Assembly (NCBI GenBank): GCA_014871385.1
Contig: CM026425.1
Location: 3,305,561 to 3,369,560 of the forward strand
Reading direction: 5' to 3'
Source: Ceratodon purpureus
Taxonomy: Eukaryota > Streptophyta > Bryopsida > Pseudoditrichales > Ditrichaceae
DNA: 64,000 nt
A program made the translations under genes and the position numbers. Numbering within the stretch: the stretch's first letter is position 1; every line of letters starts with the position of its first letter. Of the stretch, positions 4,161-52,255 are shown piece after piece. The notes under the pieces are model-generated. The model did no database searches. It worked only from the letters and a program-made list of their open reading frames with translations, and was not told the origin of the DNA.

Positions 4161-5564
4161 AAGAAATCAACCACATGCATCAGAGGCTCCTGTTCGCACA
4201 GAATAGCGACTACGTGAACCTATAAGCAAGTCAAGAATAAATAACGGCAATGCACATCATTCTGGCGAAGAGGTCCCTCTGTGAAGCGCCACTTTATCAC
4301 TGCGAGAATGGGCCGAAGAGACTAAAAGCGCAGCCGCACAGCATAGAAGGGGAAATGCCAAGGATCACCTACACCCTGCTTAAATGGAAGCTGTAACGAC
4401 GCAACTCAGCCACAAGTACCATCTGAAACAGTAACTCACCTCTGTGCTGCCCATGAAGTAAGGATGCCTCCTGTTCTTTCTAACACATCGACGGTAAGTC
4501 GCCAGCGAGACATCCGTTTCGCGCATGTGCAATCTACAAGGGCAAGGCAGTCGCCTCCATCGTCCCCGTGTCGCGATTTCAATCTCCCGATTGAGGAGCT
4601 TCGTCTCCCTGGCCTCGATTCTGCGCTCAGAGGGGCGCATCTGACGAATGTTTTCCGCCATTCCACGGCACAAATGGAGTCCTTGATGTCCCCGCCACCT
4701 CGTAAATTCCTACTGAACGCATTCCAAACCACAGGCACGAACTGAGTCCTCGCGATTGGCACCCGCACATAGAGGAGGCAACGATAGACGGCAGTGCACT
4801 CCATAGCTTCATGGAAACCACTTGAACCCTAGACTCCCGCTGCTGCTCTTAGCACTGTCGTCTACAGTTAAAGAGCAATCCCACGCGAGATATCCCAAAG
4901 AGTAGGACGCAATCGCACATCTAAGTCGCCGCAATGCTTCTGGCGATCGTTACGAAGTCGTAGGGACTGGTATCCCAAGATTGTGTTGCCCAACCCATGA
5001 AACCCTACAAACAGTAGGACATAACTAAAGTGCACTCCAGGAGGAGTGCCCGGGATACGGTATACGGTGGGCACAGACCAGGTAGTGGACGGTATGATAG
5101 AGGGCACAAGTACGGTGTTGGTCTGAAACAGTACAACCATAATGTCCGAGAGGCCTGTCAGGGCCATCGCATCGACGGAACAGTCCTCCTGTTTCTCCTG
5201 GAATCCACCATCAACGTAAACTCGACACAGAAGATGGGATCCCACGTTGAGCCCAGCAATCCCGTAATGTCCGTACGGCAGTGGATATCAGCGTAGTTGG
5301 CCAGGTCCAGAATGGACTATCCTCCTCCCTCTACGTAGCCTGTGCCCGCTCTCTAACACGCTCCTCTGGAAGGTTGTACTCCGTGTCCGACGAAACACAA
5401 CTCTACCGTGGACATGGGCTAGAAGTGTCGAGCGGACTATTTGAATGTTCGCTAAGGAGACTTGGGCAAGACAATGTGCGGCACGTCTTCGTAACTTTCA
5501 TTTGTTGGGGCGATGGCGAAGGCCCGGAACAGGACGATTCAGAGAAGGAAGCAGATGTGTGCGG
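4161..5564. other. Central CACTA segment with no assigned gene
   Basis: This lies between the divergent Tnp2 and accessory genes. Minus-strand reading between about 4380 and 4820 is open in two frames, with stretches such as VVWNAFSRNLRGGGDIKDS and RRIEARETKLLNREIEIA, but I recognise no domain. It may hold a 5' exon of Tnp2, leader sequence, a captured fragment or nothing coding. Confidence 0.3.
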
Positions 5565-22208: not shown

Positions 22209-22535
22209 GGTCGCCCAAAACTCGTCCGAAATCCGTTGGACGAAGGAAGAAATTCGTTGAATAGAGGGAAGAGGTTCGTTGGACGAAGAGGGAAGATCGT
22301 TGGACGAAGAGGGAAGGTCGTTGGACGAAGAGGGAAGGTCGTTGGACGAAGAGGGAAGGTCGTTGGACGAAGAGGGAAGGTCGTTGGACGGGGATGAGCG
22401 TCCGTTGGAAGAAGGGGGAATTTCGTTGAAGAAAGGGTAAGCTCGTTGGAAGGAGGAGGGAGTTCGTTGGAAGGAAGGGGTAGTTCGTTGGAAGAAGGGA
22501 GGAGTTCGTTGGAAGGAGGGGGAGTTCGTCGGAAG
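22209..22535. repeat. Minisatellite, 21-bp unit GTTGGACGAAGAGGGAAGGTC
   Basis: From about 22277 to 22390 there are near-identical copies of a 21-bp unit built on GTTGGACGAAGAGGGAAGG. Flanking units (22209-22276 and 22390-22535) are diverged, with cores such as GTTGGAAGGAGGAGGGAGTTC. Because 21 is a multiple of three, long frames stay open on both strands (GRRGKVV on plus, SSSNDLP on minus); these are repeat by-products rather than supported genes. Confidence 0.9.
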
Positions 22536-22678
22536 TTTCGGGCTGAGGGGGGAGACGGAGCTTTGGCGGTGTTGTGGGCTCGGTTGAGTTCCAGAAGTTC
22601 GTGGATGTTTCGTTTGTTTTTTGATTCGTTTCGTAGGTTTTGGGTGTGTCATTGTTCGTTCTTGTGTTGTTGTATACG

Positions 22679-22797
22679 GTGAGTCCCCCCGGGAGGGGCT
22701 CACGCCATATAACGCCCGCCGTCGCAAAAGGGGAGGGCGTAGCCCGACCCGTGCGACAAGGGCGTTATATCGCGTGAGCCCCGACCGGGGGACTCAC
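22679..22797. repeat. GC-rich inverted repeat / hairpin with 38-39 bp arms
   Basis: The left arm is 22679-22717 and the right arm 22760-22797. Both arms read GTGAGTCCCCC, then GGGGCTCACGC and ATATAACGCCC from the outside in, with few mismatches. A short GTCGC match extends the pairing inward, leaving a loop of about 30 bases. It could be a small MITE or a structured RNA element. No target duplication was recognised. Confidence 0.85.
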
Positions 22798-22892
22798 CCG
22801 ACGTAACTGCCCGTTGGAATTTTTCCCCGACGCGTTCCCAGTGATATGAACTATCGTTCTCTTTAAATCCCAGCACAGTAGTCTGTTCCCAC

Positions 22893-23135
22893 CATGTCCG
22901 TGCGGTGCCCCACCATGCCCGAGCGATGTCCAGCCTGCCCGAGCGATGCCCAGCCTACCCAAGCAATGCCCAAGCCTGCCCGAGCGGTGCCCAAGCCTGC
23001 CCGAGCGGTGCCCCACCCTGCCCGAGCGATGCCCAGCCTGCCCCGAGCGAAGCCCCAGTCTGCCCGTGCGAGCCCCAGCTTACCCGCGCGTGGCCCAGCT
23101 TGCCCGAGCGAAGCCCAAGCCTGCCCGTACGAGGG
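22893..23135. repeat. Minisatellite, 20-21 bp unit related to GCCTGCCCGAGCGATGCCCA
   Basis: About eleven units with the core TGCCCGAGCG-TGCCCA run in direct orientation and become more diverged toward the right (CCCGTGCGAGCCCAGC forms). Open frames on both strands across it are Pro/Ala/Ser-rich and repeat-driven, so no gene is called. Confidence 0.85.
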
Positions 23136-23521: not shown

Positions 23522-23527
23522 TATAAA
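23522..23527 (+). promoter_or_regulatory. TATA box of the recombinase-like gene
   Basis: TATAAA followed by GGCGGGGG, then CAAACCCTAGCTCA about 15-20 bases later, is a typical plant core promoter and leader start. Transcription would begin near 23550. A T-rich leader follows, with a likely leader intron starting GTATGTTTTC at 23998. Confidence 0.6.
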
Positions 23528-24202: not shown

Positions 24203-27200
24203 ATGAAATCACCGCGCAATGTGGAAGACGAAGCGAGTGCTTCCAGGTCGAAACGTTCTTGGACAGACGATGGAGATCCAGATTGCGAGCCTGTTTAGAA
24301 GATTTACGTTCTTCCTTCGTTTAATTTGCGTCATCGGAACAGTTCTGGTGACATCGTCCACGACATTAAAGTGGAAATGGATCTTTCACTCGGTTAGTTC
24401 ATATTTTTTTATTCATTTATACATATAATTCTGAATTTGTTTTATCGTTATATCTGTGCTTTCCTTGTTCATTAATAATAATTGATTCTGCTATTGTTTT
24501 GCAGATATTCGGGTTACTCAAACTGGTGACACCAGCGTGCTGAAGTTTCCAGTCGAGGAAATGGATAGTGAACTACTCGAGAAGTTAGAGCGGGAACACG
24601 AGAATGAAGTAAAGGTTCAGGAGGAAATCGATGAGGTAGACAACGAGGAGTTCGACAATTTGTGCAATATTTCGTGGGACGCGTACATCTCTCAGACACA
24701 AGTAAGTGAATCTTCATTTAGACTGTAGAATCTGAATGCTTAATTCTTTATTTAAACTTCAGAAACTAAATCATCACTTAATTAAACCTTGATTTTATTA
24801 TATTATATACTAAAATGAATTTTTTAAATTCTAAGGGCGTAATCGAGGAAAACCTTAACGTCAGCGAGGGAGTGCAAGATGTCAACAATACTGTGGACAT
24901 AACTTGCACCGAAGGTAAGTTAATGTTCTTCTTAGCTTTTGTAATTGTAATTAAAAATTTGACGACCTAATTGTAGATGATTTTATTGTTAGTTCTCATA
25001 ATTAGAGGCCATGTTCGGCCGAAGGCCGCCGAAGCCGCGCGGCAGCGCAGTTTTGCTAATTAGATTTGCTTTTACTTTGCAGATGTTTCGACTTTCACGG
25101 GAATATCAAGCGATTCGTATTGCGATTCTGGTATCCTTCTTATTTTTAATTCATTTTTTAATTTTGATTAATGTACTGTTGCATCGTAGGATGATGAATT
25201 AATTACTGTTATTAATTTAATTTTTTGGTAAGTTTTTCCAGATTATGCCAGAATTAGCGGAGTTTATGGCTCGTCATCCGGAGTTGGGAACAATTGTTTC
25301 GATGCTGATGATGTCGTAATTCCTTGTACGATCCTTGTATTCTGTACTGTGATGTTATTGTTTTCTCGGTTTATTGTGTCGTGTTATACTTAGATTTAGG
25401 TTGTTCTTTTGTATTTTAAATGAGGGACCATGCGCGGCCGCAGGCCGCTGAAGCCGCGCTACAGCGCATGGTTGTGTATTTGGTATTTATTTTTATCACT
25501 TTTGCAGATGTGCCAGATAATCCTGACTCGGGCGTTCGTGGAGGCTCGGGGTCAGAGAGTACTCTTACTCGTAAGTTTTGTTGATTTGCCTTTTTGATTT
25601 GATTAGATATAGTGTTGTAGCATTCTAGTTTAGTTTTTTTTATGTCATTTGAATTTTTAGTCTGAAAAGGAGGGGCCATGCGCGGGCGCAGGCCGCTGAA
25701 GCCGCGCGGCAGCGCATGGTTTTGTGTAAACCACGATTTTCTTACTTGTTTGTTTTATTTTTGTGGATTTGTTTTCTTGATTTATTAGATTTAGTGCATT
25801 AAATTTTAGTTTAGATTTGTGTATGTTTGTTTATTTTAAGTCTGAAAAGGTGGGGCCATGCGCGGCCGCAGACCGCTGAAGCCACGCGGCAGCGCATGGT
25901 TTGTGTAAATTTCGATTTTCTTATTTTTGTGTTTTATCTGCTCATGCAATTGATTCTTCTTGTTCGGGCTCGGGGGTGGTCGCCGAGTTTGCGAGGGAGT
26001 TTTCTATTCCTAGATGTTTTCAATTGGTTCCTGCAGTTGCCGAAGACAATGTCACCGCAAATACTGAAGCAGGTAACCTGGCATGTTCAAGTTGTTTTAT
26101 TCTTTTTTGTTTGTTTTTCAGATTTTTTGTTATTCATTGCTTTATTCATTTTTTTCAGTGGTTGTTTAATAAATTCTATTCTACATGCAGGTTTTGCTCG
26201 TGATATCAGAGCTGGCGCTGATGGTCCTGGGGTGTTGGAGGAAAATGAAAACGGATACGTTGATTCAGGTTAGTTTTATTTGTCGAATATGGTTGTGAGT
26301 TTTTTTATTTATTATTTTAAGTCTAATAATGTGTTGTTTTACAGATTCTGGTGTAGTTTATAGCTTTAGTTGGAGGGAAGCTGAAGTTCGGAGGACTCTA
26401 GTGTACAATTACATACACGATCTTAGTGTAGCTAGATTCTACGGAGGTTAGTATAGCTATCGGATTTCTTAGTGTTCTGTATGTCTAGAGTATCTTTTTA
26501 GATCATAGATTTTGTGCTATCTGAATTTTTAATTTTTTTTTGTAGTTGCAGTGTCCGAAATTTCCAGAGAGGCTTCAATAGTTGTGAAAGTTGAAGATGG
26601 AGAAGAAGACGTTGTCGGTGTTGACATTCGGGAGGGAGTTGAAGAAGTGTGTCGTGGTGAAGAAAAAGTCCTTTCCGATGATGACGAAGACGATGATCCC
26701 GATAATATCTTTATCCCGCAATCCAATAATTTCCCTGAAGAAGAGGGTGATGAGGAGAGTTTTACTGATGGTGTGCAGAACGGTGTCTCGGAATCAAGTG
26801 GTCACCAAAATTCTGGTATGTATTATATTTGGTCACTTTTTTTTTATTTTGGTTATTTATAATTACTATGTTTCTGTTCTGTATTGTTTATTTATTATGT
26901 CTGGATTAGTTTTCTGATATAATTTCTTATTTTTGTTTTTGTAGGGGCACTGTGAAGGGATCTCGGTTTCGTGATCTTGACCCGACTGAGGTAAAAAATG
27001 CATCTATGAATGGTGAGCGAAGGGGTTGCCACTCCGAGCAATGGGCCTGAAACACGTTCGACGAGTGGCGTCGGTTCCGTGGTTATCCCACCGACAAAAC
27101 TATTGGTGAACTTTCTGAAGAGGAGGACATCCGGGGCTTTGTGGATCTTCTTTATGAATTCTTCTTACAAGTTACCAAACAGGACAGCAGTCTCTATGAA

Positions 27201-29460
27201 CCCGGATCGTGAGTTTTTGAACTGTAATATGATTCATTGTTTTTATTTTTATTTTGTTCGTTAGTTTTATGATATTGTTTTGAATGCCTTATTTCTTTCA
27301 ATTTATTTTCATCAATTTCAGTTGGTGAGCATAGTTTGTTTTATTTTTAACTGTTCGAATGTTGTGTTTTACAGGATTGCGAATATGATTCGGGCCGTTG
27401 GCCGAATCATCAGATTGCAACAGGACATACGTTTACAACAAACTTCTGCAGTTGAGCCCCCGTTCAATATTATGTTAGACCCCCGATATCGGCGAGTCAA
27501 ATCTGCTGGGACGGAGTCGGTGAAGCGATCTTTTTGACGTGGACTTGGAATCCAGACTTCGACATCAGATGTTTTAACTCGGGACGAGGAAGTGATGGTG
27601 CTTATGTCTGATGGTGCTTCTGTTGTTAACCCGAATGGCCTTATTCATCGTCTGATCTATTTTTTTTGTTGAAATTTTTTTATACGAGGTCAAGACGAAC
27701 TTCGGGCTACGCATGTGGGACAATTTCAGTTGCTGAAAGAGCGTGGAACTGATATTCTGAGGTATTTTTTCCTTTACTATGCTGTGTGTATTCTTTAGTC
27801 TTTGACTGTAGAAGTGTACTGTTTAGTGTTTGTTTGTAGAAGTTAGTTTTTCTCTCTTGATTTGTAATTCTTGAGTAGTGTTTAATACTCTGTTTGTTTA
27901 TTAGTCAATGCACATGAATATGTTTTGATATATTTCTTTTTCTTATTATTCTGACTAGGTACAATCCCAGCTTAAGCAAAACGTACAAAATGGACATAGA
28001 GCATTGCTCTAAGCACTCGATCCGCCATTCAATAGATTGTTCTGATCCTGACGTTGTCGATACCTTTAAGAGAATGATTTGTTGTTATCCTTCTTTTTCG
28101 GCAAAGGAATTGTTGGACAGGTTCGATGGGAATCCTCATCCGGTGTTTTTGAGGGCTAAGTCTAATTCAAGTTGAACGATGAAGTGTGGTTTCAAAAACG
28201 AGTTGTGGGAAAGAATACTCTTGGGAAAGCAATTAAACTTATGATTGAGTCTACTCCTGGTGAGATTTCTTACTTCGACTATTTTCTTTTTAATTCTGTT
28301 TTTTTTTTGTATACTTTTATGTTGTTGTTTAGTATTGAGTTTTGTAGGATATTGATTTGGATATCGTACTTATTTGTTGCGGTTTTTTAAGTTGAATTTA
28401 GGTCTTGTAATCGGAGATAGAAAGTTCACGAATAAGACACCACAGCGGATGGGTATTACACGAATGGCTGAGGCACAGATCTCAGTTGACAAGGCGATGT
28501 TAGTGACTGAACATCGTGATGTCAAGTCTTTCAATCAATATAATGCGAATCCAATCAAACTGCAAATGGACGCTTGTCAGCGTATTATCTCAGGCGATGG
28601 TAAGAAATTTTCGGAGGTATTGTCTCAAGAGTTGAGAAAGGCTAACGACGTGAAGGTAATTTTCGAGACTTAGTATTTCTACGTTTCTGTTGTTTTTATA
28701 TTTTCTTAGTGGAATTTTTAATAAGGGTTTCATTGTAATTTGTAGGATGTTGAAATGAGTAAGGCTGCGGCTCTAAAGGCAACAGGTCAAAAGGATGCTA
28801 AACGTATGATGGAGGTCATTGCGGTGAAGAATGAAGACGCTAAAACTGAGGCCGTGGCCGTGAAAGCTGAATCTTCTGTCAAAGTATTTAGTTTTATTAA
28901 TTTCAATTTATATTTTGAATTATTAATATCATTTTTTCGTTTTGTAATGTTTTTTGTGTTTGAATTTTGCAGATTACAACTCCTGATTTGAAGAATGTTT
29001 CTACGCTTCTTGCCACATCAAATATTCGTGAAGAGGTTAGTGTTTAAATGTATAATTTGATTACTTGAAGTCTTCTTTTTTGAGATGCTTTTCATTTGTC
29101 TTTATGAATGTAATCTATTTGTTGTTGCAGTCCTTTGTGAACCAGGTAATTTCATCAACAGCATTCGTGTTCGGGAGTTGTACTCTTATGTGAACCAGGG
29201 AAGTACAACAAGAGGATTCATGTTTGGAACAGCAACAAGTTGTAACTTCTTCAACTTTAACGCACCATTTGATCCTAGCCAGATGGCGTCATTCATCTCG
29301 AAGCTTCCAAAAGTATTTTATCTTTAGATGGATTTTGTTTTTTGGTCTTTTATTCTTGCGTTTTACAATTTTTTCTTGAATCTCAATGGTTTCTGACACT
29401 TGTTTTCCTTTTTGTTTTCAGGTTGACAATGCTCTTCCCGATCCCGTGAGCTCACAGTAG
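24203..29460 (+). pseudogene. Crypton-like (DUF3504-type) tyrosine recombinase gene, many exons, decayed
   Basis: At least fifteen exon-like segments with GT-AG borders run from an ATG at 24203 (MKSPRNVEDE) to a stop at 29460 (ALPDPVSSQ). Upstream exons (24505-24701, 24836-24914, 25083-25130, 25242-25325, 25508-25570, 26037-26072, 26191-26268, 26345-26446, 26546-26815) are mostly joined in phase 1 and encode an acidic region. The part from about 26945 onward resembles the tyrosine recombinase domain of Cryptons and of the animal KCTD1/ZMYM/QRICH1 relatives: NTFDEWRRFRG, LYEPGS, IANMIRAVGRII, LTRDEEV, VWFQKRVVGKNTLGK, then QRMGITRMAEA and TEHRDVKSFNQY (28506-28541), which supplies the His, Arg and candidate nucleophilic Tyr. 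A coiled, Lys/Glu-rich tail follows, then GFMFGTATSCNFFNFN. The core is interrupted by several stops and frame changes, so this copy is probably inactive, unless splicing avoids them. I see no reverse transcriptase, which argues against a DIRS-type element. Confidence 0.7.
25009..25899. repeat. Four copies of a GC-rich 44-bp hairpin in introns of the recombinase-like gene
   Basis: Copies lie at 25009-25050, 25428-25471, 25676-25719 and 25856-25899. Each begins CCATGCGCGGCCGC or a variant and ends GCGGCAGCGCATGG or a variant. The outer CCATGCGC and GCGCATGG pair, as do inner GGCC/GCGGC stretches, so each folds. They stand out from introns that are strongly AT-rich. Copies 3 and 4 share flanks (TCTGAAAAGG-GGGGCC before, GTGTAAA and GATTTTCTTA after) and are 180 bp apart, so that pair arose by tandem duplication of a longer unit. 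Confidence 0.9.
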
Positions 29461-29646
29461 TTCGTATGCAACAGTACTTTCGGTACAAAGTGTTATTTGT
29501 TTTCAAAAAAATAAAATTAGTACTTTCGCAACTAGTATAGATGTAATTAGATCAGAGTTAGATTAGAATGTACAAACAGAATCAAGCCTCTTTTGATCAA
29601 TTTTTTGTTGATAGGCTACATAGTATTCTACATTAGAGGACTTAGT
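29461..29646. other. 3' region of the recombinase-like gene
   Basis: AAATAAAATTAG at about 29507 is a likely poly(A) signal. The region ends at the AGT target-site copy of the next element. Confidence 0.4.
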
Positions 29647-31840
29647 CACTAGAGGAAAACAGGGATTTTGGTGACGCGTTTTGACGCGTTTTTTAAGAGC
29701 GTTTAACGCGTTTTGACGCGTTTTTTTTTTTGACGCAAAAAAATACCGCTACGTCTGGAGAGTCAAATCGATCTTGACGTGTCGCGTCATGGAGCGTCAT
29801 CAGCCTCTTTCCTGTGACGCTCATTGACGTGACACTGCTTCGTGAATTTACCTGCGGTCAGTAACTTAGAGAGTAACTTTTTTGCCACGTGGGCGTTTTC
29901 CGGTTTCGCGGGAGACACGGTGGATACCATGTCATGGATGAAAAATTTGCTGAAGTGGCACAAAATTCTGACATGGCAATCGGTTTTTCAACGGCTCATA
30001 TGTTGACACGTGGCATGATCGTGGACTGGACGTATATGTGTGATGCGTTTGTTAAAAGTGACGTTATTTTCTGTTACTTTTGACGCAGTGGGGTTTTTTG
30101 GAAGTACGTCACGGACGTCAGTTTTGACGCGTTTTTGAGGTTGTTTGACAGATGCGTCCCGGACGTTAAATTTGACGCTGTTTGACGCTGAAAACACAAG
30201 CGTCACTTATTTTAATGCGTTTACGGAAACGTCATTAGACGTAGGATCATGTTTGCCACGTCAAAAGTGACGCATTCAATTTGAATGTTGTGTAAAAAGA
30301 AACACAATGTAGTGTTCAACTTGACGCTGATAAACACATATGTCACATAATTTAACGCGTTTCGGGAAACGTCTTTAGACGTAGGATGACGTAACGTAAG
30401 GGGCTGCTCATGCTGGATCCTGCTTAATCTACACAACCCACATCATTGTGCTCATGGTGAGTTCATAGCAACACATCATTCAATCACACTTGAGTAAAGA
30501 TTTAGGTGGCATTTGATTACAAGGAAGTTAATGGAACAAGATCACGTGAAGAAAGGAACAAGAGAGGAATCGAGACAAGAAGAACATGGAGAACAAGAAA
30601 CCCCCTCCCCCCCCCCCCCCTCGGATTTTATTGAAGTACCTTTCAGATTATAGGTTGGCGTTACTCCATCCTAGCTTGGTTTAAGGTTTGCCTTAGATTT
30701 TTGGAAAGCTAACTTGATTGTACATCTACCCTCAAAATCTCAGAAGCATACGATAAAAATCCTAGGACTGATTGCTAAAAATCCGAGACCCTTCCTCCAG
30801 CCGCACTCCTTTGACAACCCTATCTTCGGGAGGCGATATCTCACTCCCTATAACTCGGAATTGGACGTGCTTACTACCATTGGAAAGCCCTACAAGAGAT
30901 CTACAATCTCCTCAAATCTCACTTTACTTGGACAAGAAACAAGGACTGACAGGGAAAACAATGAGAGACACTCCATGGAGTAGGAAGAAAACACAAAAAG
31001 CTTGAAAACAAGCCCTCAAATACAAGATAAGAAGCCGCCGAAGTGGCGGCTTACCCTAACCCTACCAAGGCTCAAAGCCCTAATCTAAGACCTTCATGGA
31101 TGAATGTTTCCGCACACGTGACACGTCAGCTGATTCAATATGTTTCTTGAAACACATATTTGACGCATTTTTGTGTCACTGGGAACGCGCGCGTCACTAT
31201 TGACACCCCTAGAATGTTGACTAGGTCAACCCTAGACGCCACGTCAGCCGTAGATTATCCGCACACGTGACACGTCAGCTGAGTTAATGTGTTTCCTGAA
31301 ACATATATGTGACGCGATTTTATGTCACTGGAAACAAACGCGTCACTAATGACACCCCCCGGGATGTTGACCAGGTCAAACCTTAGAGTCCATGTCAGCC
31401 ATAGCTTCCACGTCAGTGTGACACATCAGAAACGCATTCCACGTCGGATTCCTAATAACGTCACTTTTAACACAATTTAACATAGAAACACATCCGTGAC
31501 ACCCATCTATGTTAAAAGTGACGTGCGGACTTTGGATATTACTGTACTTAGCCATTTGAAAATCACTGCGAGGTAAAAATCCCCTTTAAAAGTTACTTTT
31601 CCACACTGCCCAATCTACCTTCTCTGTCTCTCTTGACGCTGCTACGTCACTCGTAACATCCAAGGTGACGTAAATTTATTTCGCGTCAAAGCCGCGTCAA
31701 ATGTGACATTTGCACGTTAACCCTACTTGACGTACACTACGTCACTTTGGACTAGATTTCTACACTAATTTCGTATAGTCTGGGCCCGTGTCATCTTTGA
31801 CGCGTTTTTACGTCCCCTAAGCCTCGGTTTTCCTCTAGTG
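29647..31840. mobile_element. Complete non-autonomous CACTA element, 2194 bp
   Basis: The ends are CACTAGAGGAAAAC (29647-29660) and its inverted copy GTTTTCCTCTAGTG (31827-31840). AGT flanks both sides (29644-29646 and 31841-31843), the 3-bp target duplication expected for CACTA. About 0.8 kb at each end is packed with TGACGCGTTT, its reverse AAACGCGTCA and shorter TGACG forms in both orientations, the layout of subterminal accessory-protein binding sites. No transposase frame is present, so it would depend on an autonomous relative. Its ends differ from the proposed end of the CACTA element at the window start after CACTAG, so the two are probably different families. Confidence 0.93.
30470..31090. 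other. Unrelated core inside the non-autonomous CACTA element
   Basis: This middle part lacks the TGACG motifs that fill both flanks. It holds a C-run at about 30603-30620 and ends with a GCCGCC-AAGTGGCGGC inverted repeat followed by AACCCTA motifs (31033-31075). It could be captured host sequence or an insertion of an older element. No coding domain is seen. Confidence 0.45.
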
Positions 31841-31843
31841 AGT

Positions 31844-32204
31844 GTTGTAAAGTTTGTAAATGACAACTTTTCCACTCATCATAATTGAGATGCGTTTTAC
31901 TTGTAATTCCGTGTTTTACTTGTAATTTTGTGTGTCGATTTATAGAATTTCAATGATTTGGAATTACTCGATTGGGCACTAGTGTGTCTGTTTGCATTTG
32001 CTTTAAGTGAGTGAATATGGATGTTTTCTTATTGAATCTTAATATAACCTGCCCAGAAAATGTCTGAGAAGAAAAAAGTCAAAAATACGTTTTAAAAAAA
32101 GTCTTAAAAAAAGTTTTGAAAAAGTTGGAAGTCCTCAAAAAAAAGTTCAAAAGAAAAAAAAAAACAGCACTGCCCGGGTTTTTGGGCGGGGCGGGAATTC
32201 TGCC
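31844..32204. other. Non-coding spacer, A-rich at its right side
   Basis: No gene. The A-rich stretch at about 32085-32165 makes a low-complexity Phe-rich frame on the minus strand that I do not accept as coding. Confidence 0.4.
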
Positions 32205-32210
32205 TATAAA
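32205..32210 (+). promoter_or_regulatory. Candidate TATA box upstream of a foldback
   Basis: TATAAA sits in CTGCCTATAAAACCGGG. Transcription starting near 32237 would place the foldback at 32422 about 185 bases into the transcript. This is suggestive only. Confidence 0.4.
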
Positions 32211-32421
32211 ACCGGGAGGCGAGCCATCGCGGGGCTCACGCCGCGGGAGGTACGTTGGATTCCCATAATAAAAATCCCAAAAGGGAGTTACCTTCGTCGT
32301 GTGAGGTTGCACTTGGCGGGTGGGAGGGTGGACAGCGGCGACGCTGCGGATTGGAAGGCGAGTGGTTTCGTGATCAGATTTGGGGTTTAACTTCTGAGCT
32401 TCTTTAACGCCTGCCATGGCT

Positions 32422-32552
32422 TGATAAGGTAGAGGGTCCTAGAACCGTCCCCTGTTTCCAAAACCAATCAGGCTGAAATGTTCAAATCAGGTACATTTCA
32501 GCCTGATCGGTTTTGGAAACAGGGGACGGTTCCAGGGCCCTCTACCTTATCA
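32422..32552. repeat. Near-perfect foldback, 60-bp arms with 11-base loop; possible small-RNA precursor
   Basis: The left arm is 32422-32481 and the right arm 32493-32552. The arms differ at only three positions, and one of these would be a G:U pair in RNA. The arms contain GAACCGTCCCCTGTTTCCAA and its complement. Arms of this length with a tiny loop fit either a young miRNA-like precursor or a small foldback MITE. No coding frame and no homologous host target were recognised. Confidence 0.85.
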
Positions 32553-34284
32553 TACTTCCCTGCCGTCGCCCGCTCCAGCACTTCCTTCGAACCCCAAAAC
32601 CCTAATATAGGGTTCCTCCCCGCTAAGCATACAGTGCACCGAATTGGCTTCAATCGGTCATAAAATGTAGAACGATCCGCTCCCACGGCGCATTGTGTGC
32701 CCAATTGCAGTAGCAACGATGGCGGGTCTAGTCTCCATCGATGGTTGATGATTCAGGGCCAAACCGGAAATCCCAGCGGCTTCTGCAATCGAAAATACCA
32801 GATATGTATTCTCTATAAATATAGGATTGGGGTTTTAGTTGGCTAGAGCAATTGGAGCTTCCGGTTGCAAGGTTACCTTCTGCTTCCAGTCATTCGAGAA
32901 TCGAGCGGCTCGAGCCAGCTGAAATTGCAGCCCTGTTTTTCTGGAGAATAGATGGAGCTGATATTATTCGTTGCTGGAGCTCTTGGGATTTCGATTGTGA
33001 CCCTTGTATTAACATAACCATAGAAAATCGGTTTTAAATGCTCGTTGTCTATGACAAATGCTCGTCGTTCTCCGCTCTTTGCTAAAAGTAAAAGCGTTTG
33101 CACAAGTGAGTTGAGTTGCAGTGTAAATAGTAACACACACTTTCATTTTTGTCCATTTGTTTCCAAGCTTGATGCTAGAGTTTGTAAGCATGCTTGTTGC
33201 AATAATTTGCGAGCATGCTTGTGATAGATGAAATTATTGCTTGAGATGTTGATGATTGTGATACATTAAAAGTCAAAAAAAATTCTATTCATAAATAACA
33301 TTCAAACATTAAGAATTACATATTGATCATTTCAACATGTGTCATTGATTGTGATGTATTAAAATTTAGTGATTGTGACATACTTAGAAGTGATTTATCG
33401 TGATTAAATTTCACTAGTTTTAACACATTAATAGTTCATTGACATGTCATAAATCTTTCTATAAGTAATAAGAAATATGAGCTTAAAAAAACCATTGACA
33501 AAGATGAATTTCCCATGGTCAAAATAGCAAAATTAATATACAGAATGTGGTAAATAGATTGAAAAGATTAAAAAAGAAACAATTAGGATGAAGCTAATTT
33601 AACCACCCCTGTACTAAACAATTCCTTGAAATAATGGTTAGTTTGACAAAACTTTATATTGTACATGAGTATGTGCCTACAAATATGTTTCTCAACAAGA
33701 TCAAGATCCATAAACTTTTTTAAAAACATGTAACAAAGAAATACTTATAATAAGTAATAAACTATGTTGGATATTGTCTTAACCTATAAATCTATCATAA
33801 TGATTTTAAGCAGAAGAATTTACCTATTGGTGCCAATGAAGATTTGAAGGTTGCCAATTTTGGCATAAACACATTTTGTCAATAATAAAAACCACACAGT
33901 TTCTTCAACTCAATGTGTAGAACTTTTGGTTGTGTTTCTCCAAATTTGGTCACAAGTAAAGACTACAATGGAATATTAGTAAATTTATGGTCATGTGGTC
34001 TTATCCTTTGACTAATTTGAAATCATTGACTAATTTGACTAATTGCTAATCATTGGAAAAAGAAAACATAATAACTTTAGTTGAAAATAAATTGAAGATA
34101 AAATTCACACATCCTTTTTGCATTTCATTAGGTATTACAAGGGTTATACTAAGAATTTTGAATCTAAATCTCAAAACTAAATTATCTCATAACTCACCAT
34201 ATTTTGAGTTTTGAAGAAAATACACACCTTGTAAGTCATCAAAGATACAATCATGAACAAGGACTATGTTGATGGAATTGTTTA
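32553..34284. other. Spacer with a second TATA-like site, then AT-rich sequence
   Basis: CTATAAATATAGG at 32812-32824 is TATA-like, and CCCTAATATAGGG occurs at about 32602. A plus-strand frame at about 32852-33037 lacks a domain and a convincing start. From about 33.2 kb the sequence is AT-rich and stop-filled. I see no gene. Confidence 0.4.
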
Positions 34285-35127
34285 ACCCCTAATTGGCCAA
34301 AGTCCTAGAATGGGCGTTTTTGAAATTTGGGCAGGTTCCTAAAAATTCAAATTTACTTGAAATTTTTTGAAATTTTTTGTGGAAAAATGTTTTTTCAAGA
34401 GGTTTATGGAGATATTTTTTTTATTTTTTTTGGATGAAGTGAGAAAAAGTTATGCTCCTCTGAGCATAAAACGCCCTTCCACGGGCAGGCTCTCAGCCAC
34501 TGTGAATGCAGCAATTTCTGCCCGAAACTGCCCAAAACTGCCCAAAACTGCCTAAAGACGAAACTTTGAAATTCCACCAAAAATTGAGATTTAGATATTT
34601 ATCAAAAATAAAAAATTTTATGTATAGAGAAAGTAGTAGAGCATGTTCCCACCGTTCGGATTTTTAATCCAAATTTTTTTCATATGCTATTTTTATTGTC
34701 AAAAAACGGCCTTTGTTTGTGAATTTCAGTATACCCCCTAGCGGAAAATGATTTATTTGGCAATCTTCCACAACTTTTTTGAATACAAATTTTTTAGCAC
34801 AAATAGTTAACTCAGTCTTCTTTGACGTGCATCAAAACCCCCAAATTCCATAATGCAAAAAAATGGTTTTTTGGGCCTTCAAAACTCTGCTGATCCCTTT
34901 TTGCGCAGGGAAAAAAAACTTGTTTTTCAACTTTGAACGTTATGATCTTGCAATTGGTAAGGAATCAGTGTGTAAGATTTCGTGCACATGTAGACATAGA
35001 AGTTAGCTACAAGATCTTACGGTTAGATGTACAAAGTAAGACCCCAAGTTTGCAAAATCCACCTTGCTTTGAAGAGGGGCTGTTTTCAGGCAGTTTTGAT
35101 GAAAAACACCCTTGGCCGTTTAGGGGT
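34285..35127. mobile_element. TA-flanked inverted-repeat element, copy 1 (843 bp)
   Basis: The left end is ACCCCTAATTGGCCAA and the right end TTGGCCGTTTAGGGGT, inverted copies of each other, with TA on both sides (34283-34284 and 35128-35129). It has no coding frame of note. Internally it shares blocks with the two other copies, for example CCACCGTTCG, AATTTCAG-A-ACCCCCT and AAGATCTTACGGTTA. A TA target suggests a Tc1/mariner-like (Stowaway-like) MITE. TTAA flanks both ends of this copy too, so piggyBac-like is the alternative. Confidence 0.8.
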
Positions 35128-35582
35128 TAAGAGACTAGTGGACATATGGTTGTGAAAAGAAGGAATAATTTCAAATATGAATAACTAGATGTAATTAAAA
35201 GGAAGTCTTTACCTGGTGGTCTTGATTACTCGAGCTTATTTGACAAACTCGATATAAAGAGCGTCAATTTAGAAAATTAAATTCAAGCAAATATCTGCCC
35301 AAAGAAATTGCTATAGGAATGAATTTTAAGTTGCAAAGGTAATGGACTTTATTGTAAAGTAGTTCAACAGCAAAATTTTGATCATGGCAGCTGACTCTAA
35401 ATTTTGTAACAATTCCAAGTATATTTTCACAAATGCTCATGAAAATTAATACAAAAAATAGCCTCAATTGTTGTAAATCACCTTATACTAAATTCTTAGT
35501 TTGCGGATGTTCATTGAAAGCATTTTTTGTTGTTCACCCTGCTAGGCATGGAAGCTTTCACTATCATTTTTCTTTGTGGTTA
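35128..35582. other. AT-rich stretch without a gene
   Basis: No recognisable frame or repeat; it links copy 1 of the TA-flanked element to the dispersed repeat that follows. Confidence 0.4.
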
Positions 35583-35860
35583 ATTTTTAGTTTTTGTTTA
35601 AGTGTGATGGAATAGTCATTTCATATTTTTACAATTCTTTACCAAGATTTAATTTACACTTGTTTGATTAAGGTATACTTCCATTTATATAGTTAAATAT
35701 CATAAATTAAATTATATATTTCATTACAAAGAGTTTTAAGAAAATAATTATCCAAACATTGTGGAATCTCTAGTATGCCTAAATAATGATTTTGAAGAGA
35801 ATATTGACAATCATAGGGTGAAACTTGTTGTGTTGGTGAAATATGATACTATATCTCCAA
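35583..35860. repeat. Dispersed AT-rich repeat, copy A
   Basis: This matches 49538-49812 in the same orientation over about 275 bp. Shared landmarks include TTTAGTTTTTGTT, TTTGATTAAGGT, ATCATAAATTAAAT, CCTAAATAATGAT, GAGAATAT-GACAAT and GTTGTGTTGG. The identity is moderate and the family is unknown. It is near the right edge of each AT-rich island. Confidence 0.8.
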
Positions 35861-36419
35861 AATTGCGAACCACCCGATTTGCATTAATTAATTAATGGTC
35901 CAGCGCAGGGGTCTGACGTGGCGGCATTTCCTGGCGTGAGGGGCCTGACGTAGAGGGGTGGAGACGTACACTGTAAACCACTAGTATCCCTTTATCAAAT
36001 AATGTGGATCTCAGATACGTAAATGTAGGCGCATGGTAGATATTCTTTGTTTTGTAAGCAGTAACGGGTTTAGGTGGAGGACTCTAGAGTGGTGGTGTCG
36101 ATGGTGTTTATTGTCTCTGTCCTCCAAGGCAGAGACTATGTGGAGACTTCCCCTATCAACTCCATCCGAAAGTCCAATGACCTACCCACAACCCTTTTCA
36201 CATTTTGAAACATGATAGGGTATATTTTGTATCCGTTTTCACACTTAGGGTTGTGGCTCCGATGGGTGGTGACGAGGCAGTTTTCATGTAGTTTGATGAA
36301 CAGTATTAGTATATGATGTACAGACTTCTCATCCACCTTCTCATCCGCCTCTCCGTAAACTCCAACAAAACTCATCCACGCCCTCCCCCACATCCATCTA
36401 AAGTGACCGCGAGCTCGGC
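35861..36419. other. Spacer at the edge of the AT-rich island
   Basis: Composition changes from AT-rich to GC-rich here. No supported gene. Confidence 0.35.
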
Positions 36420-37445
36420 CCAAGCTTGGAGCCCAGTCTGCGTTGCTCCGCAATGTGCATTGCAGACCGTCTCCTCGCGGCGTCGCCCTCCCTCGCCACT
36501 AAGGGCGGGGCAAAAACGGAGGATCGCGGATGCTGCCCCCGCCCTCGCCCTGCCCGTGGCCTCCCCGCTCCACCCCGACCCTCGCCCTTCCACGGCCTGC
36601 CCTGGGCCCTTCCCTCCCCGCCCCTCGCTGTCGGGCTGAGGAGATCCCCCAACGCCCATTTGAGTTGGCTCTCGCCCCCTTTGATAGCCCTTGCTGTTCC
36701 CGAATGTTCCCCACGTTCCCAAGCACCTAAAAAAATAAAAAAATAAACTGAATTCAATTGTACTATCCTGTCCTTGCGCCGTAGCCACAATAGTTCCCTA
36801 CGCCGGAACGACGTCTTAGGGTTGATGACTCCTTTGTCGAATTTTCTCCATCCTCTTTGGGTTTATGACATGTTTTGGTTAGTATTTTGGGAACTAAACC
36901 CTAAACACTAAACCCTAAACTTAAAACCCAAAACATGTTATAAACCCAAAGAGGATGAAGAATATTCGACAAGAGAGTCATCAATCCTAAGACGCCGTTC
37001 CGACGTAGGGAACTACTGCGGCGACGCCGCAGAGACAGGATAATACAATTGAATTCAGTATATTTTTTTATTTTTTTAAGTGCATGATATTTCCATTACA
37101 TGGAAGACGAAGACATGATGATAATGTTATATCCCTTTTTAATTATGACTCAACTTAGACGACTGAGTTTCAAACAATAGGAAACCTCTTTGCAGTAATT
37201 CTAGTACGATTACGTGTCTTAAAAAAAAAATTAAAAAAAAAATTAAAAAAAAATAAAAAAAAAAAAAAAAATAAAATAGGGAGGGAGTCGGGCCCATAAG
37301 AGCGGGGAGCGAGCCGGGCTGGCTGCAGGGACGGGCCCGCGGGGCGGGGCTGATGCGGTCAGGGCGAGGGCGGGGGCAGCATCCGCGCTACCCCGTTTCT
37401 GCCCCGCCCTTAGTGGCGAGGGTCGCCCTCCCGATTGCAGACCTT
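36420..37445. repeat. Nested inverted repeats around a telomere-like core
   Basis: Outer GC-rich arms, about 36430-36600 and 37330-37445, are inverted copies (CGCCACTAAGGGCGGGGC and GCAGCATCCGCG landmarks). Inner arms of about 160 bp, about 36725-36885 and 36920-37078, are inverted copies with landmarks ACTGAATTCAATTGTA, GACGTCTTAGG or near, and CATCCTCTTTGGGTTTAT. The core at 36893-36925 is AAACCCTAAACACTAAACCCTAAAC, degenerate plant telomere repeats. The right side also has long A-runs (37220-37280). Open frames on both strands are GC-driven Pro/Arg/Gly-rich artefacts. Confidence 0.85.
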
Positions 37446-38772
37446 GCTCCTCCCCGACCATCGCCCCCGCTCGCCTCGCGCCTCTGGTACGGCCTCAGAT
37501 CCGCCGCTCGCCTCGCGCCTCTGGTCCGGTGCTGGTGGAGGTTTCCTAGTTGCGGTGTGGTGGCGGTTGTTCTGGTTCTGTTTTCTGCGGGGTAGGGTTT
37601 TGGCTAGTTTTGGAGATCTAGATGTGGACTTTGGTGTGGTTCGGGGTTAGGTGCTCGATATTATCCCCTTCATCTTCTTTTTCATTCTCTCTCCAACACA
37701 AAGGTAACACTACAGAATGTGAATTGTGTCAACTTAGGGATGTCAAGATGTGGTGCAATTTGTGCACAGTTTGAGATTGCACTTGTTTCCTCAGACATGT
37801 TGTTCGTTGCACATTCTTCGCATCACCGCATCGCCATCGCCATCGCCACCTCCGGCACGACGCCACTTCTTCGATCGTTCTCAACCCCCATCTCCGGTAC
37901 GCCATACCCATATGCAACTTAGTTGTTCGTCTCTAGATTTTCTGGATTTTTCATCTAGGGTTCCCTCCAGCTTGGTAATTGAATCTCAGCTCAGCTCTAG
38001 AGTTCTAAGTTCGTGGATTGATTACTGTAGAGAGTGGTAGCAAGTGAAGTAGATTAGGTTTCAAAGGGCAGCTGGTTTCTAGGGTTGTGTTGGGAGTCTT
38101 CTGTTCTCTTAGAGGTGGGTTTGCTAATTGGTGATTCGTGATTAGGGTTCATGCGTGTGGTGAGTGAATTAGGTTGAGATGGTGATGATACTGCTTTTTA
38201 TTTCTGGTGTGTTTTGTAGAGGATTAGTGGGGTTTTTGTTTTGGTTCGTGAGTAGGTTCTTGTGACGAATACTTGACATTGATGAGTAAGGTTGGATTAG
38301 TATGCTAGATTAACTTATCAGGTTGCATCTAATGTTGGCAATCATCTTCTGGGAAGTCATTGATTCACGCACATAAGCTCCTTTCTTTGCTGGAAATGTT
38401 AATGTATTGCCTAGAAATTCAGGTTAATTTATTCGGCGTTGTGTTGTTTATCATCACCTGTTGCATGGCATTGCTGGAGTAGCTCAAGTACATGTGTTAT
38501 ATTAAGATGTAAATTCTCTTTGCAGCTAGAAGTTTCTGAATGGAGTTTGTGGGTTGTGTTGCTGAGCTTGGGTACGTGCTTTAACCCTAAACCCTGAAGC
38601 ACAGCGAATGTGCATTGTGCAGTTCAGCTTTTCTCTCGAGGTTTATTGGGCAATGTTGTGAGATGAGGTTTATGATAGTTGATATGCAGAAGAGGATCAG
38701 GAAGGTGTATTGTGTTGTAATTAGCTGTGCATTTTTGCAGATTTGAACTATGGTAATGATATATGTAAACGT
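37446..38772. other. Spacer with leader-like sequence, no assigned gene
   Basis: CGCTCGCCTCGCGCCTCTGGT is duplicated at about 37468-37530. Downstream text has leader-like and intron-like features (TAGGGTTTT, GTACGCC after CATCTCCG at 37895), but no exon chain with a domain could be built. It may be the 5' part of an unrecognised transcript. Confidence 0.35.
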
Positions 38773-38866
38773 CCCTCCTCCTCTCGACCAAGTTTGGGAC
38801 AGTGGACAGACCCTCCTCCTCTCGACCAAGTTTGGGACAGTGGACAGACCCTCCTCCTCTCGACTT
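38773..38866. repeat. 38-bp tandem repeat upstream of the first TNL gene
   Basis: CCCTCCTCCTCTCGACC starts at 38773 and 38811 with identical continuation (AAGTTTGGGACAGTGGACAGA); a third partial copy starts at 38849. It lies about 180 bp upstream of the duplicated TNL block and is absent upstream of the second copy. Confidence 0.9.
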
Positions 38867-39042
38867 CGGCCATAGTGGGAAGCGGCCCTTCGTACAGATC
38901 ATGTGCGTGCTGATCTGCGCGTGCACAGCCTACTGTACAGTTCTTGGCACCACAATAAACTTAGTCCAAGCTCAAGTTTTGCAGCACTCGGATCGCGGCA
39001 AGTCTGGTAGATCAGCGGGATAGCTCTAGAAGAATGAGCGAC

Positions 39043-42000
39043 AGACCTTGCTTCCGGGGCTGTCTGAGCCCTAATACCGACAAGGGTATTCGGTGGGTCT
39101 TCGATCGTCAGACTCATTTGAGGTTCTTCAAATCGAGGTCGTGTTTACGGGTATGTGTTTCCACTTTCTGCATCCTCTTCTATTGTGGAACTTGGCTGGG
39201 GAGATTTGGCAATATATTGGCAATTTCTTATTCCAATGGCAGTTTAGGGGGTTTGGTCTAGCAAATAGCATCTACATGTTGTGTTTTTAAGGATTCTTAA
39301 CCTCGCTTCGGCAGTTGTAAGACTGCGGCCATAGTGATGAATTTCCCCATTTGGAAAGAAGTTGACAGAAAGAGACGAAATTCGAGAGGAACCGCGGGAG
39401 TGTTCGCCGACCTCCTAATATGGTGCTATAGGAGCATACTAGGCATAACGAAGGCGTCTTTGAGTGTTGAAGCCCCAAGTTTGTGTGTTGAGTTGGCTTG
39501 GGGTATGCCCTCGATGGTTAGACATTCAGTTCGATGCCAAAGCACGGCAGTTTTTAGTATTTTCTTGCGACGTTGTCTAGATCGTTAGGATTCGCATTCG
39601 GCACTGTACTTATATGGTCATGATTGCTGCTGTGCGAGAGTGCTTGATTCTATCTCTTCGCGCGCATAACTGCATCGAAGACAATAGATTTTTGGTCATG
39701 TACTGCGCCATATCCTGTCTAGTTCTATCCATGACTGCTCATGCATTCTTGGATTGACATTTGTATTGGATTCTGTTTGTCGTGTTGTATTTCCTCTGAA
39801 ATTGTGCAATTGTGCTTCACTGAGGCGGGTGTGAGTGGGTCAGGTTTTGATGCTCTGCTGGATAAGCAGTTCCTCTCGCCAAATAGATGATTCAAAATTT
39901 CACACCAGAGATTGCTGGAGGTTGATAATAGATAGTCGAAACAGAGATTAATGATCAGATATACATCTGAAATCTGTGGCACTCCATATAGTATTAGCAT
40001 TTTCTTCGTTTACGGTGGCATTTCAAGATTCATGTGATGCCACTACATCATGTAGCAATATAAAGATGAGCACCTTCTTTGGCCATGGATTTGGAATGTT
40101 ATCTGACGACGACTGTGCACCTTGCGCTTATTGAACTTCTGCTTCAAGAAGCAATTGTTTACCTTGAATTGAATTCAGTGTGCAGATCTTGTTGGGGATT
40201 TTACAGTGACTGCCAAGAAAGGTGCGAGTTCGATATGACAAGGAAAAGGAAACGCTCTGGGGTCGAATCTTCGGACGAGGAGGCTCGGGATCCGCCGGAC
40301 CCCACAAGTTCAGATTCTAAAGGCGCCGACCCATTGAAGGTCGATTGTGATGCGTACAGGTGAGGTGTTCGATTATCATTGTACCAACGAAGGCAGGATG
40401 AGTATGCAATTTTGAAAAGTACCGTGCCAGATTCTACTGAATCTGGGGACATGTGTACTGCCACTTCCTTACATGTTACATGTTGATCTAGACCTCAATT
40501 TTGACAGATGCAACTCATGCCAAATACGTCCCAGCACGAGAGCCATAGAGATGATGAAAGTTGGAGAGAATATCTGGTGGCGGCATATGTGACAGTAGTG
40601 AGATATTCTACACCTCGATTGTCGTTTGTCTGTGGAACTGCTCACTGAGTACTATGTGACCGATGTCTCTCGCAGTGGTCCTAAGTTGATTTTTCTAAGT
40701 CACAGCGGGAAACAGAAAGGCTTCACGGAGCTCCTGTGCCAGGAACTGGTAGGCTGGTATCACACTCCATTCTTCGACGTACGTAATGATAGTATTCCGA
40801 GCGGGACGAGGTTTGCGGAGTGCATCTTCAGTGCTGCCAGTCGATGTGGCGTGGCAATATTGATTCTGTCCGAAGACTTCTTTACAAACTCAAAGTGGCC
40901 TATGCTGGAGTTGGCGGCTTTCGTGGAAGCACAGGACAAATCTCGAGAAATGGGCCTTCCGGAGCGCCCCTTTATCCTCCCGGTGTACTATCAGTTGACA
41001 TCGAAAGACTGTGAAGTAAATTCACCAAGACGGTCAAAGTGGCTATCTACATGGAAAGAGTGGGAAAAGCTGCCTGCAGAGATGGGCGTTCCGCCGATTA
41101 ATGTGCACAAGTGGGAGCTTGCTTTGGAGGTGCTCGGCAGTTCAAGTGGGATCGAATATAATGAATCATTACGCGAAGCTGGGTTGATAGTTAAGGTTGT
41201 GCAGGCTGTCCGCCATCTGCTTCCACCTCCGACTTTTGGCAGTGATGCAAGCATACAAGGGAAGCGACGCATATGCAAGGTGGGGATACTTCCAGCTAAC
41301 TCTGATCACTAATTTTATAGAAACCTGTATTTTGTGCTCCTCAGAAAACACCGGGAATCTGATGCTCTTTGAAAAGCCTTGCTTTCTTCCGACATATATA
41401 CTGACGATGTGGACTAATACGGACGCTCATTTCTATGGAGGGTTGACATATTTGACTTGATGGGCTGCAGACTATAATGGAAAAGATTTCACAGCTCAAA
41501 TCGCCACGGAAAGGTGCGCGTGTGGTGGGTGTGTACGGCATGGGAGGAATGGGAAAGACAACCATCTGCAAAGAGCTTCGCTGCTGGTATTACCATGAGT
41601 TTGAAGGAAGAGTTTGTCATGCGGAACTCGGAAGCGAGAGTAAAATTGATTTGCAGCGACATGTTGTGCGGAAGTTAGCAAACGTAAATCATAACTTACT
41701 GTCGGAACTCGACGACTTGATGGTACATGTGACTCGAATTCGAACCACATATCTTTGTGATGGTTGTATGTGTGTGATGCCCATGTATTTACGAGCCGTC
41801 AATTGTGAGCTTGAAGCGGTCCTTCTCATTCAACCTTCCATGATTATTTCCTTTGAGTGCAACTGTGCAGTCTTCCGTGGAGGTCTAATATGTGTACTGA
41901 TGCATGTTGATGAACAGAGCCTATTTTGATTTTATGGTTGTGCAGTGGTGGATGGCTCTTCAGGAAATATGCTGAATTTGACCATGCATTCTGCATTTGA

Positions 42001-43716
42001 TTCGTCTATTGAAGAAACTGCACGAATTAACTGTCAAGTATTGGGATGCTGTCAGGTTACCGAACACCTTCAGCATCGCATGGCCGGAGAGAAAGTGTTC
42101 CTAGCTTTGGACAACGTGTGGCAAGAGTCGATCGATGAAGCCATGGTTTATGTTGGAGCAAGTTACGGCGACGACAGCATTGTGCTGGTGACTGCGCGTT
42201 CTATCGACATATTGAAATCACTACAAATCAACGAAAGTGACTGCCTAGAAATGCCCGAGCTAGAGGAGGAAGATGCAAGGCAGTTGTTCCTTTCCAATGC
42301 TGCTCCCGGGATTCAACTGTCCCGATTGCAGAGCGACATTGAGATTGGTGGGATCATAGAATCTTGTATCAAGGAATGCCACTTTTCGAAAGTTGGAGGT
42401 AAGGGTGAGTGTTATCACCCTTTAGCACTGAAGGTTTTGGGCTCGCAATTGCAGTTAGGTGGATCGGTGAAGAACTGGGTGGAGAGTCTAAAGGATGGCA
42501 GCCATTTTTATCATCCTGATCGCTCTACAGAGGACGTTCTCTTTACGGTTCTGGGCCGAGGTTATTACCCAGGGGAGAGGTTTACAAGCAAGAAGGATCA
42601 GTTTCTTTTCTATGATGTGGCACTTTTCGAGGATGTGGTGTTTTTCAGTCCTGCTTCGAGATGTATTGAATCAGTGACTCGTTTCGAATGGTTACGCATG
42701 CTCTATGATACGTCTATGGCCACGATCATGAGGCGGGTGAGTGAGCATTCTCAACCCTTGTGAATTCTGTAGTGCTTTAGAATCCTTCTGAGTAAGCTTG
42801 GTTCTTTACTATGCTTTAATTGGACACCATCCATGTTGTGGTTTGCACAGTTTGTATGCTCGTCCCTGCAGGTCTAATTGTACATTCAGTTGGATTACTC
42901 TAGAGTATTTGAAACCATCAAACCTTTTGTGGGTTGATGGTGCGACATGCAAATGGTAGGATACTTGGTCGGTACAGTGGCTGGCAGTGCCTGGCTATGG
43001 GTCACATTCTGAGGTGGTCTTGGTGGGATTGTTGCAGTTGCAAGTGCTGAAAGCGAGGGCGGTGCTTGAGTTTGGTGCAGGACGTGTTTTTGTACATTAC
43101 CTGTATCGAGAGTTTGCCAGATTTGAGGCAAACGAAGGTAAATTGGGGAAACGAGGAGTGATGTGGCATGAAAGTCAGAGAGCTTTTAAATGGGACTTTG
43201 AGAAGACGCCTTCGGGCGGGCCTGATGGTTGTTGGTCTAAATTGAAAAGACTCGGCGTTGTTCTCAGAGATGGGAAGTCCTTCAACGTAGAAGGAGTAAA
43301 GTGGCAGAATTTTGCCAACGTCGTTGTACTCGTTTTGCGTTCGATAGAGAGGAATCAGGAGCTGCATCTCGAAGGTCTACGATGCTTGAGAAGTCTTACG
43401 CTTGTGGGATCCGTCATCAGAGTGATTGGACTTGGGGAGCTGCGGAATCTTAGATGGCTTGATTTGGATGGTATATGTTGTGGCCATCATGAATTTGGTC
43501 ACTTGACAGAGCTCAAGGTGTTGCGGGTGATTACAGAGTGCGATTGTGTGAGTAGGGCTTCGCCACCTTTAGAACTTGCGAACCTCGACAAGTGTAGCAA
43601 GCTACTTGAGCTTGTGGTGGAGAGTGCGTGTTTGAAGGCTTTGCCAGACCTGAGCGGGATGATTGCTTTGAGAAGGGCAATCTTTAAGTGCCCAAACGCG
43701 ACAGAGGGGCCAGTTT
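39043..43716 (+). repeat. Segmental duplication, copy 1 (TNL gene block)
   Basis: Sequence from 39043 onward matches 59315 onward at an offset of 20272, changing to 20287 after the first part of the TIR exon and to about 20275-20284 later. From 39043 to about 40675 I noticed only one difference, near 39322. Exon segments are patchily diverged. Sequence upstream of 39043 is only loosely similar to that upstream of 59315, so the breakpoint lies at the start of the probable leader. Confidence 0.95.
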
Positions 43717-52081: not shown

Positions 52082-52255
52082 CATTAGGAAATTGTGTGTT
52101 GATGATTCTTAGTGTTTTGTGTATAGCCATCATTTCTGCTCGTAGGATGTTTTGGTGTCCATGGAGTCCATTAGGAAATTGTGTGTTGATGATTCTTAGT
52201 GTTTTGTGTATAGCCATCATTTCTGCTCGTAGGATGTTTTGGTGTCCATGGAGTC
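52082..52255. repeat. 87-bp perfect-looking tandem duplication in the LINE RNase H region
   Basis: Copy 1 is 52082-52168 and copy 2 52169-52255. The unit is 29 codons, so the reading frame is kept, and the duplicated peptide includes AEMMAIHKTLRIINT, the part with the RNase H catalytic Glu. Confidence 0.92.

Follow-up and report, generated by a model that had tools for sequence, protein, structure and literature searches.

A decayed many-exon gene, probably of the Crypton/DUF3504 recombinase type, in Ceratodon purpureus, somewhat likelier a mobile-element relic than a domesticated gene

Introduction

Among the closest described systems to the locus considered here are the Crypton DNA transposons, whose hosts, as given in Table 1 of Kojima and Jurka (PMC3212892), are fungi, animals and stramenopiles, the last including oomycetes and a diatom; one plant species, Chlamydomonas reinhardtii, stands in the legend to Figure 2 of the same paper, which concerns a wider eukaryotic recombinase tree. 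Crypton ends have no terminal inverted repeats, and short terminal direct repeats are present in the fungal and stramenopile groups and in none of the animal ones. The accessible text of the same source gives the catalytic tetrad of tyrosine recombinases as R-H-R-Y, states that the catalytic tyrosine is lost in all vertebrate DUF3504 proteins, and leaves standing the possibility that the Crypton groups had independent origins. The present analysis concerns a gene at 24203-29460 on the + strand of a 64,000-nucleotide stretch of Ceratodon purpureus contig CM026425.1 (the window), part of which resembles this kind of recombinase.

An earlier note on the window, which first proposed the Crypton assignment, knew of no well-described land-plant family of this kind. 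The statement agrees with a literature search in which no description of a land-plant Crypton was found in the accessible parts of PMC11630846, PMC4157794, PMC3537659, PMC8729191, PMC10722297, PMC9406493, PMC12220804, PMC9004415 and PMC5890265, a search that covered few subscription papers and is hence not proof of absence. The name itself is nevertheless in use, as Crypton already appears as a label in tables of plant transposable elements, for sour cherry and in an atlas of plant elements, without sequence analysis in the accessible parts of these sources. What is new about the locus is therefore its gene architecture, together with a plausible lineage in plants; the label is not.

Results

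Gene model and coding frame

The gene was modelled as 18 exons (36-387 nt, GC content 0.45) and 17 introns (76-466 nt, GC content 0.17-0.41), flanked by two candidate signals:

23522-23527, + strand: TATAAA, candidate core promoter by motif position
24203-24392, + strand: candidate exon 1, with ATG start and an in-frame TAG at 24296
24505-24701, 24836-24914 and 25083-25130, + strand: candidate exons 2-4, acidic N-terminal region
25242-25325, 25508-25570 and 26037-26072, + strand: candidate exons 5-7, acidic N-terminal region
26191-26268, 26345-26446 and 26546-26815, + strand: candidate exons 8-10, acidic N-terminal region
26945-27208, + strand: candidate exon 11, where the recombinase region starts by motif (NTFDEWRRFRG ... 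YEPGS); no profile match
27375-27761, + strand: candidate exon 12, carrying RGQDELR and the opening part of the DUF3504 match
27959-28259, + strand: candidate exon 13, in which the DUF3504 match continues (HPVFLRA ... NDEVWFQKRVVGKNTLGK)
28402-28655, + strand: candidate exon 14, judged from motif and spacing to be the C-terminal catalytic segment (KTPQ ... EH ... Y)
28746-28883, 28973-29035, 29131-29312 and 29422-29460, + strand: candidate exons 15-18, C-terminal tail and stop codon
29510-29515, + strand: AATAAA, candidate poly(A) signal by motif position

The many introns that had been proposed are borne out by this model, in which one frame is open and codon-like. That all 17 introns are GT...AG is unsurprising, because exon boundaries were picked at AG and GT. 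Six open frames from the NFXL1-type and TIR-NB-ARC-LRR genes nearby served to train a codon table, with which the coding frame scored +75.9 bits, against -77.3 and -32.7 bits in the other two frames and a mean of -58.7 (maximum -10.8) in 1000 base shuffles. The same frame contains 4 stops, compared with 43 and 82 in the others and never fewer than 37 in the shuffles; openness was one of the grounds on which exons were picked, so that this count is biased, and the codon score is the more independent measure. Exon 18 was left out of both calculations, the C-terminal tail being scored for exons 15-17 only, and the joined reading frame allows for a break in exon 13 and for a phase mismatch between exons 10 and 11.

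The ten exons upstream of the recombinase part, of 36-270 nt each, encode an acidic region (382 residues) with 23.6% aspartate plus glutamate and 7.1% lysine plus arginine. This agrees with the acidic, roughly ten-exon 5' part described before, although its phase-1 pattern is not complete: nine of the ten introns after exons 1-10 are phase 1 and the remaining one is phase 0, and candidate exons 2-10 (24505-26815) are mostly symmetrical phase-1 exons. Two exons of the acidic tail scanned against Pfam matched no known domain. TATAAA at 23522 and AATAAA at 29510 are present as reported, and by position could serve as promoter element and poly(A) signal.

Several repeats lie in the introns. GC-rich repeats occur at 25006-25055, 25428-25471, 25676-25719 and 25856-25899, in introns 3, 5 and 6; three of the four have palindromic ends (CCATGCGC ... 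GCGCATGG), and no further copy was found in the window. As candidate element ends these palindromes were rejected because they lie inside the gene. There is also a tandem duplication in intron 6 (about 180 nt, 82.5% identity).

The DUF3504 match

The segments NTFDEWRRFRG, LYEPGS, VWFQKRVVGKNTLGK, QRMGITRMAEA and TEHRDVKSFNQY, from which a DUF3504/Crypton recombinase had been read, are all present on the + strand in that order (27051-28560) and fall on exons 11-14. Put together as they would be spliced, each stop being written as X, exons 12-14 matched DUF3504 (PF12012, Pfam) over positions 2-160 of 162, with E 1.4e-4 and 22.4 bits. The assignment is thus significant for the joined exons but stays below the curated cut-off of 29.7 bits, as do the matches of the whole C-terminal half (527 residues; E 3.3e-4, 21.2 bits) and of a trimmed joined piece (E 5.7e-5, 23.7 bits). 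Swapping the exon order weakened the match (E 0.0015, 19.0 bits) and split it into two stretches. DUF3504 was matched by none of six controls (one reversed and five shuffled copies of the joined exons), the best control match to any family, in one of the six, being at E 0.0098.

Searched singly against Pfam, eight of nine exon pieces gave no match; exon 12 alone reached DUF3504 with E 0.12 over profile positions 2-57, and exon 13 alone had no DUF3504 match. Recognition of the C-terminal exons by a recombinase profile accordingly holds for exons 12-14 joined but not for exon 14 by itself, whose weak matches to Imm49 (E 0.045) and YabP (E 0.13) were taken as chance, as were the best results of a PDB sequence search (E 0.24 and 0.27, TRAF2). 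The joined region had no match to Phage_integrase (PF00589), matching DUF3504 instead.

Catalytic residues

Spacing was compared with 20 bacterial recombinase loci from four genomes, 15 of which have the motif-bearing segment. The arginine of H-x-x-R stands 23 residues before the next-box histidine in 12 of the 15, the tyrosine 9 residues after that histidine in 12, and both spacings are found together in 9. In exon 14 a tyrosine likewise sits 9 residues after a histidine. RGQDELR in exon 12 resembles box I, and on this resemblance we take its arginine to be the box I arginine. The full set of R, H-x-x-R and Y at proper spacing is not found in this copy. In a search with a profile of the 15 bacterial segments, exon 14 was not among the best 12 of 1270 six-frame pieces; it is therefore assigned by motif and spacing only.

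Decay of the copy

That the gene is decayed, as had been suspected, is evident from in-frame stops in exon 1 (TAG 24296), exon 11 (TGA 27048) and exon 12 (TGA 27535 and 27670), from a frameshift in exon 13 near 28166-28175 and from the phase mismatch at the joint of exons 10 and 11. Exon 17 has either a frameshift or a later acceptor, and a 51-nt direct repeat at 76% lies there. With four in-frame stops and at least one frameshift the recombinase open frame is not intact, and because these interrupt the gene the copy is unable to make the recombinase protein. To give four stops, some 135 random substitutions would be needed in the 907 codons (about 5% per base), a figure that depends on one assumed substitution model, has a wide error and counts from the end of constraint. 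No joint has lost its splice sites, which suggests recent decay, with the caution that the sites were chosen. As a Crypton transposon, the copy would at best be a relic.

Surroundings

Open frames of the window were scanned against Pfam at E <=0.01, covering 30 of the 62 frames of at least 120 residues. The gene and transposon families recognised, namely a tnp2-type CACTA transposase, an NFXL1-type gene, TIR and NB-ARC genes, DDE_Tnp_4 and a Myb-like frame, are plant-like, as the earlier note had judged the genome to be. A reverse transcriptase or DIRS-type ends adjacent in relatives had been named as a sign against a Crypton; no reverse transcriptase was matched among the 30 scanned frames of the window, although not every frame nearby was scanned (of 41 frames of at least 70 residues listed at 29461-40000, two were). 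An RNase H domain, possibly from a long interspersed nuclear element, lies on the - strand at 51786-52304, 22 kb downstream of the gene.

A non-autonomous CACTA-like element of 2194 bp (29647-31840) begins about 130 bp past the poly(A) motif; it has the ends CACTAGAGGAAAAC and GTTTTCCTCTAGTG and TGACGC motifs inside, and AGT on both sides represents a 3-bp target duplication. Because this insertion adjoins the gene, the place may be described as transposon-rich. On the other side, between the NFXL1-type gene and the recombinase gene, there are minisatellites with a period of about 21 nt at 22229-22539 and 22885-23127. Hairpin-like inverted repeats occur at 22686-22791 (32-nt arms at 91%) and 32422-32552 (60-nt arms at 95%), and a 367-nt stretch at 36720-37086 matches its own reverse complement at 82.6%.

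Further away, parts of the tnp2-type CACTA transposase occupy 105-4166 on the - strand, with DUF4218 and, below cut-off, DUF4216. Two TIR-NB-ARC-type copies, at 38993-43716 and 59269-64000, are 94.2% identical over 4755 aligned bases, the second running to the window end. A Myb/SANT-like frame (54700-55179) and a DDE_Tnp_4 nuclease frame (57141-57857) form what we take to be the pair typical of PIF/Harbinger elements.

Searches for relatives

Searches for relatives covered viral, bacterial and archaeal sequence collections. At the protein level five pattern matches were obtained in viral contigs, none of them confirmed. DNA patterns for recombinase motifs matched 1, 6, 1 and 3 loci in viral contigs, which were put down to chance by eye, judged on the long frames of one locus (L001) and on the frame at the match for the others; eight loci in genome contigs came from a faulty DNA pattern and by eye none is a recombinase. 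PF12012 was found neither in one bacterial genome nor in 14 control genomes, which is uninformative.

Discussion

The evidence points, on balance, to a decayed multi-exon plant gene of the Crypton/DUF3504 recombinase type that is somewhat likelier to be the relic of a spliced mobile element than a domesticated gene; as between element and host gene, this one copy favours the former weakly. In the working ancestor, small exons of mostly phase 1 would have been spliced into an acidic N-terminal tail, after which exon 11 would have supplied a DNA-clamping domain and exons 12-14 the catalytic one. With its catalytic tyrosine the enzyme would have cut DNA and joined it again by way of a covalent intermediate, the element moving as a circle, in line with the circle-based movement proposed for Cryptons in the accessible text of PMC3212892. 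By spacing, a tyrosine stands here at the catalytic position, where all vertebrate DUF3504 proteins have lost theirs, which leans towards a recombinase that was working until recently. The abundance of transposons around the gene also speaks for an element.

Several observations weigh against the mobile-element reading. A host gene could equally well have 18 exons accompanied by promoter-like and poly(A) motifs. A tblastn search of the 64-kb window yielded no second copy of the recombinase part, the other matches having E >=2.5. Convincing element ends were likewise not found: the 12 inverted pairs listed between 18000 and 36000 include two that enclose the gene (23118/34474 and 23621/30982), each of 18 nt at 83% and chance-like, while terminal direct repeats of 4-6 bp would be recognisable only with an empty site. 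Two members of the R-H-R-Y tetrad, the H and the second R, are out of place, as the residue 23 positions before the exon 14 histidine is a glutamine and K-x-x-Q (K-T-P-Q) replaces H-x-x-R; in the vertebrate domesticated genes, according to the accessible text of PMC3212892, the second R is lost in all and the H in all but KCTD1. The recombinase assignment itself is weakened by the DUF3504 score (22.4 bits, below the cut-off of 29.7), by exon 14 alone matching no recombinase profile in Pfam, by the joined region matching nothing in PHROGs or NCBIfam, and by structure models too poor to help (mean pLDDT, the predicted local distance difference test, 55.3 for exon 14 and 45.4 for exon 12).

The alternative that survives best, though it is unlikely, is that the locus is a pseudogene of a domesticated Crypton-derived plant gene, that is, a dead copy of a host regulator with an acidic region and with a DUF3504 domain for binding DNA or proteins. 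The many small and mostly symmetrical exons, the acidic N-terminal part, the TATA and poly(A) motifs, the lack of convincing element ends around the gene and the K-x-x-Q standing where H-x-x-R is expected are all compatible with such a gene, and animal precedents are given in the accessible text of PMC3212892. It is opposed by the presence, by motif, of the tyrosine, the last-box histidine and the box I arginine, the vertebrate genes having all lost the tyrosine.

More doubtful still is a mere chance match to DUF3504 by the joined exons of a decayed plant gene of some unrelated kind. The score below the cut-off and the lack of profile confirmation for exon 14 would fit this explanation, as would the control that reached E 0.0098, albeit with another family. 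Yet the match runs as a single stretch along almost the full profile and crosses an exon joint, splice order beats swapped order, the family had been named beforehand by the earlier note, and the motif spacing agrees in part.

It is very improbable that the locus is what remains of the tyrosine recombinase from a retrotransposon of DIRS or Ngaro type, even though such elements carry tyrosine recombinases too and the accessible text of PMC4157794 places Dirs1-like and Kangaroo elements in green plants or algae, since the 30 scanned open frames of the window (small frames nearby being partly unscanned) held no reverse transcriptase and only the RNase H at 51.8 kb, 22 kb away, and since the joined region matches DUF3504 without matching Phage_integrase, the family name that a dinoflagellate DIRS recombinase bears in the accessible text of PMC5890265.

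It is tempting to think, if tentatively, that the gene belongs to an undescribed plant Crypton-type recombinase lineage, heavily spliced and with a long acidic tail of small exons. Such a lineage could be a mobile element that persisted in some plants, or it could have arisen by a separate domestication in plants that parallels the animal WOC/ZMYM event. If real, a plant Crypton lineage would extend the range of hosts and have a bearing on the question of whether elements of this kind are ancestral to eukaryotes; a domesticated plant copy, if real, would repeat independently what happened in animals very long ago. Relatives are needed before either a plant lineage or a plant domestication can be claimed.

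Among known systems, the DIRS, PAT and Ngaro retrotransposons, some of which occur in green plants or algae according to the accessible literature, share with this locus the tyrosine recombinase enzyme class, but here no reverse transcriptase was matched nearby and the match is to DUF3504, without Phage_integrase. The Crypton DNA transposons of groups F, S, A and I (Kojima and Jurka 2011) have the kind of recombinase from which DUF3504 derives and, as here, no matched reverse transcriptase and no convincing terminal inverted repeats. This locus differs from them in its 18 exons and long acidic part, in being known from a single copy for which terminal direct repeats are not shown, and in a plant host lineage outside Table 1 of PMC3212892. 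With the animal DUF3504 genes (KCTD1, KIAA1958, ZMYM2-4, QRICH1 and WOC) it has in common a DUF3504-like domain, further sequence on the N-terminal side and, with most or all of them, the missing H and second R of the tetrad, whereas its plant host, the tyrosine kept by spacing, the acidic tail and the broken state of the copy set it apart.

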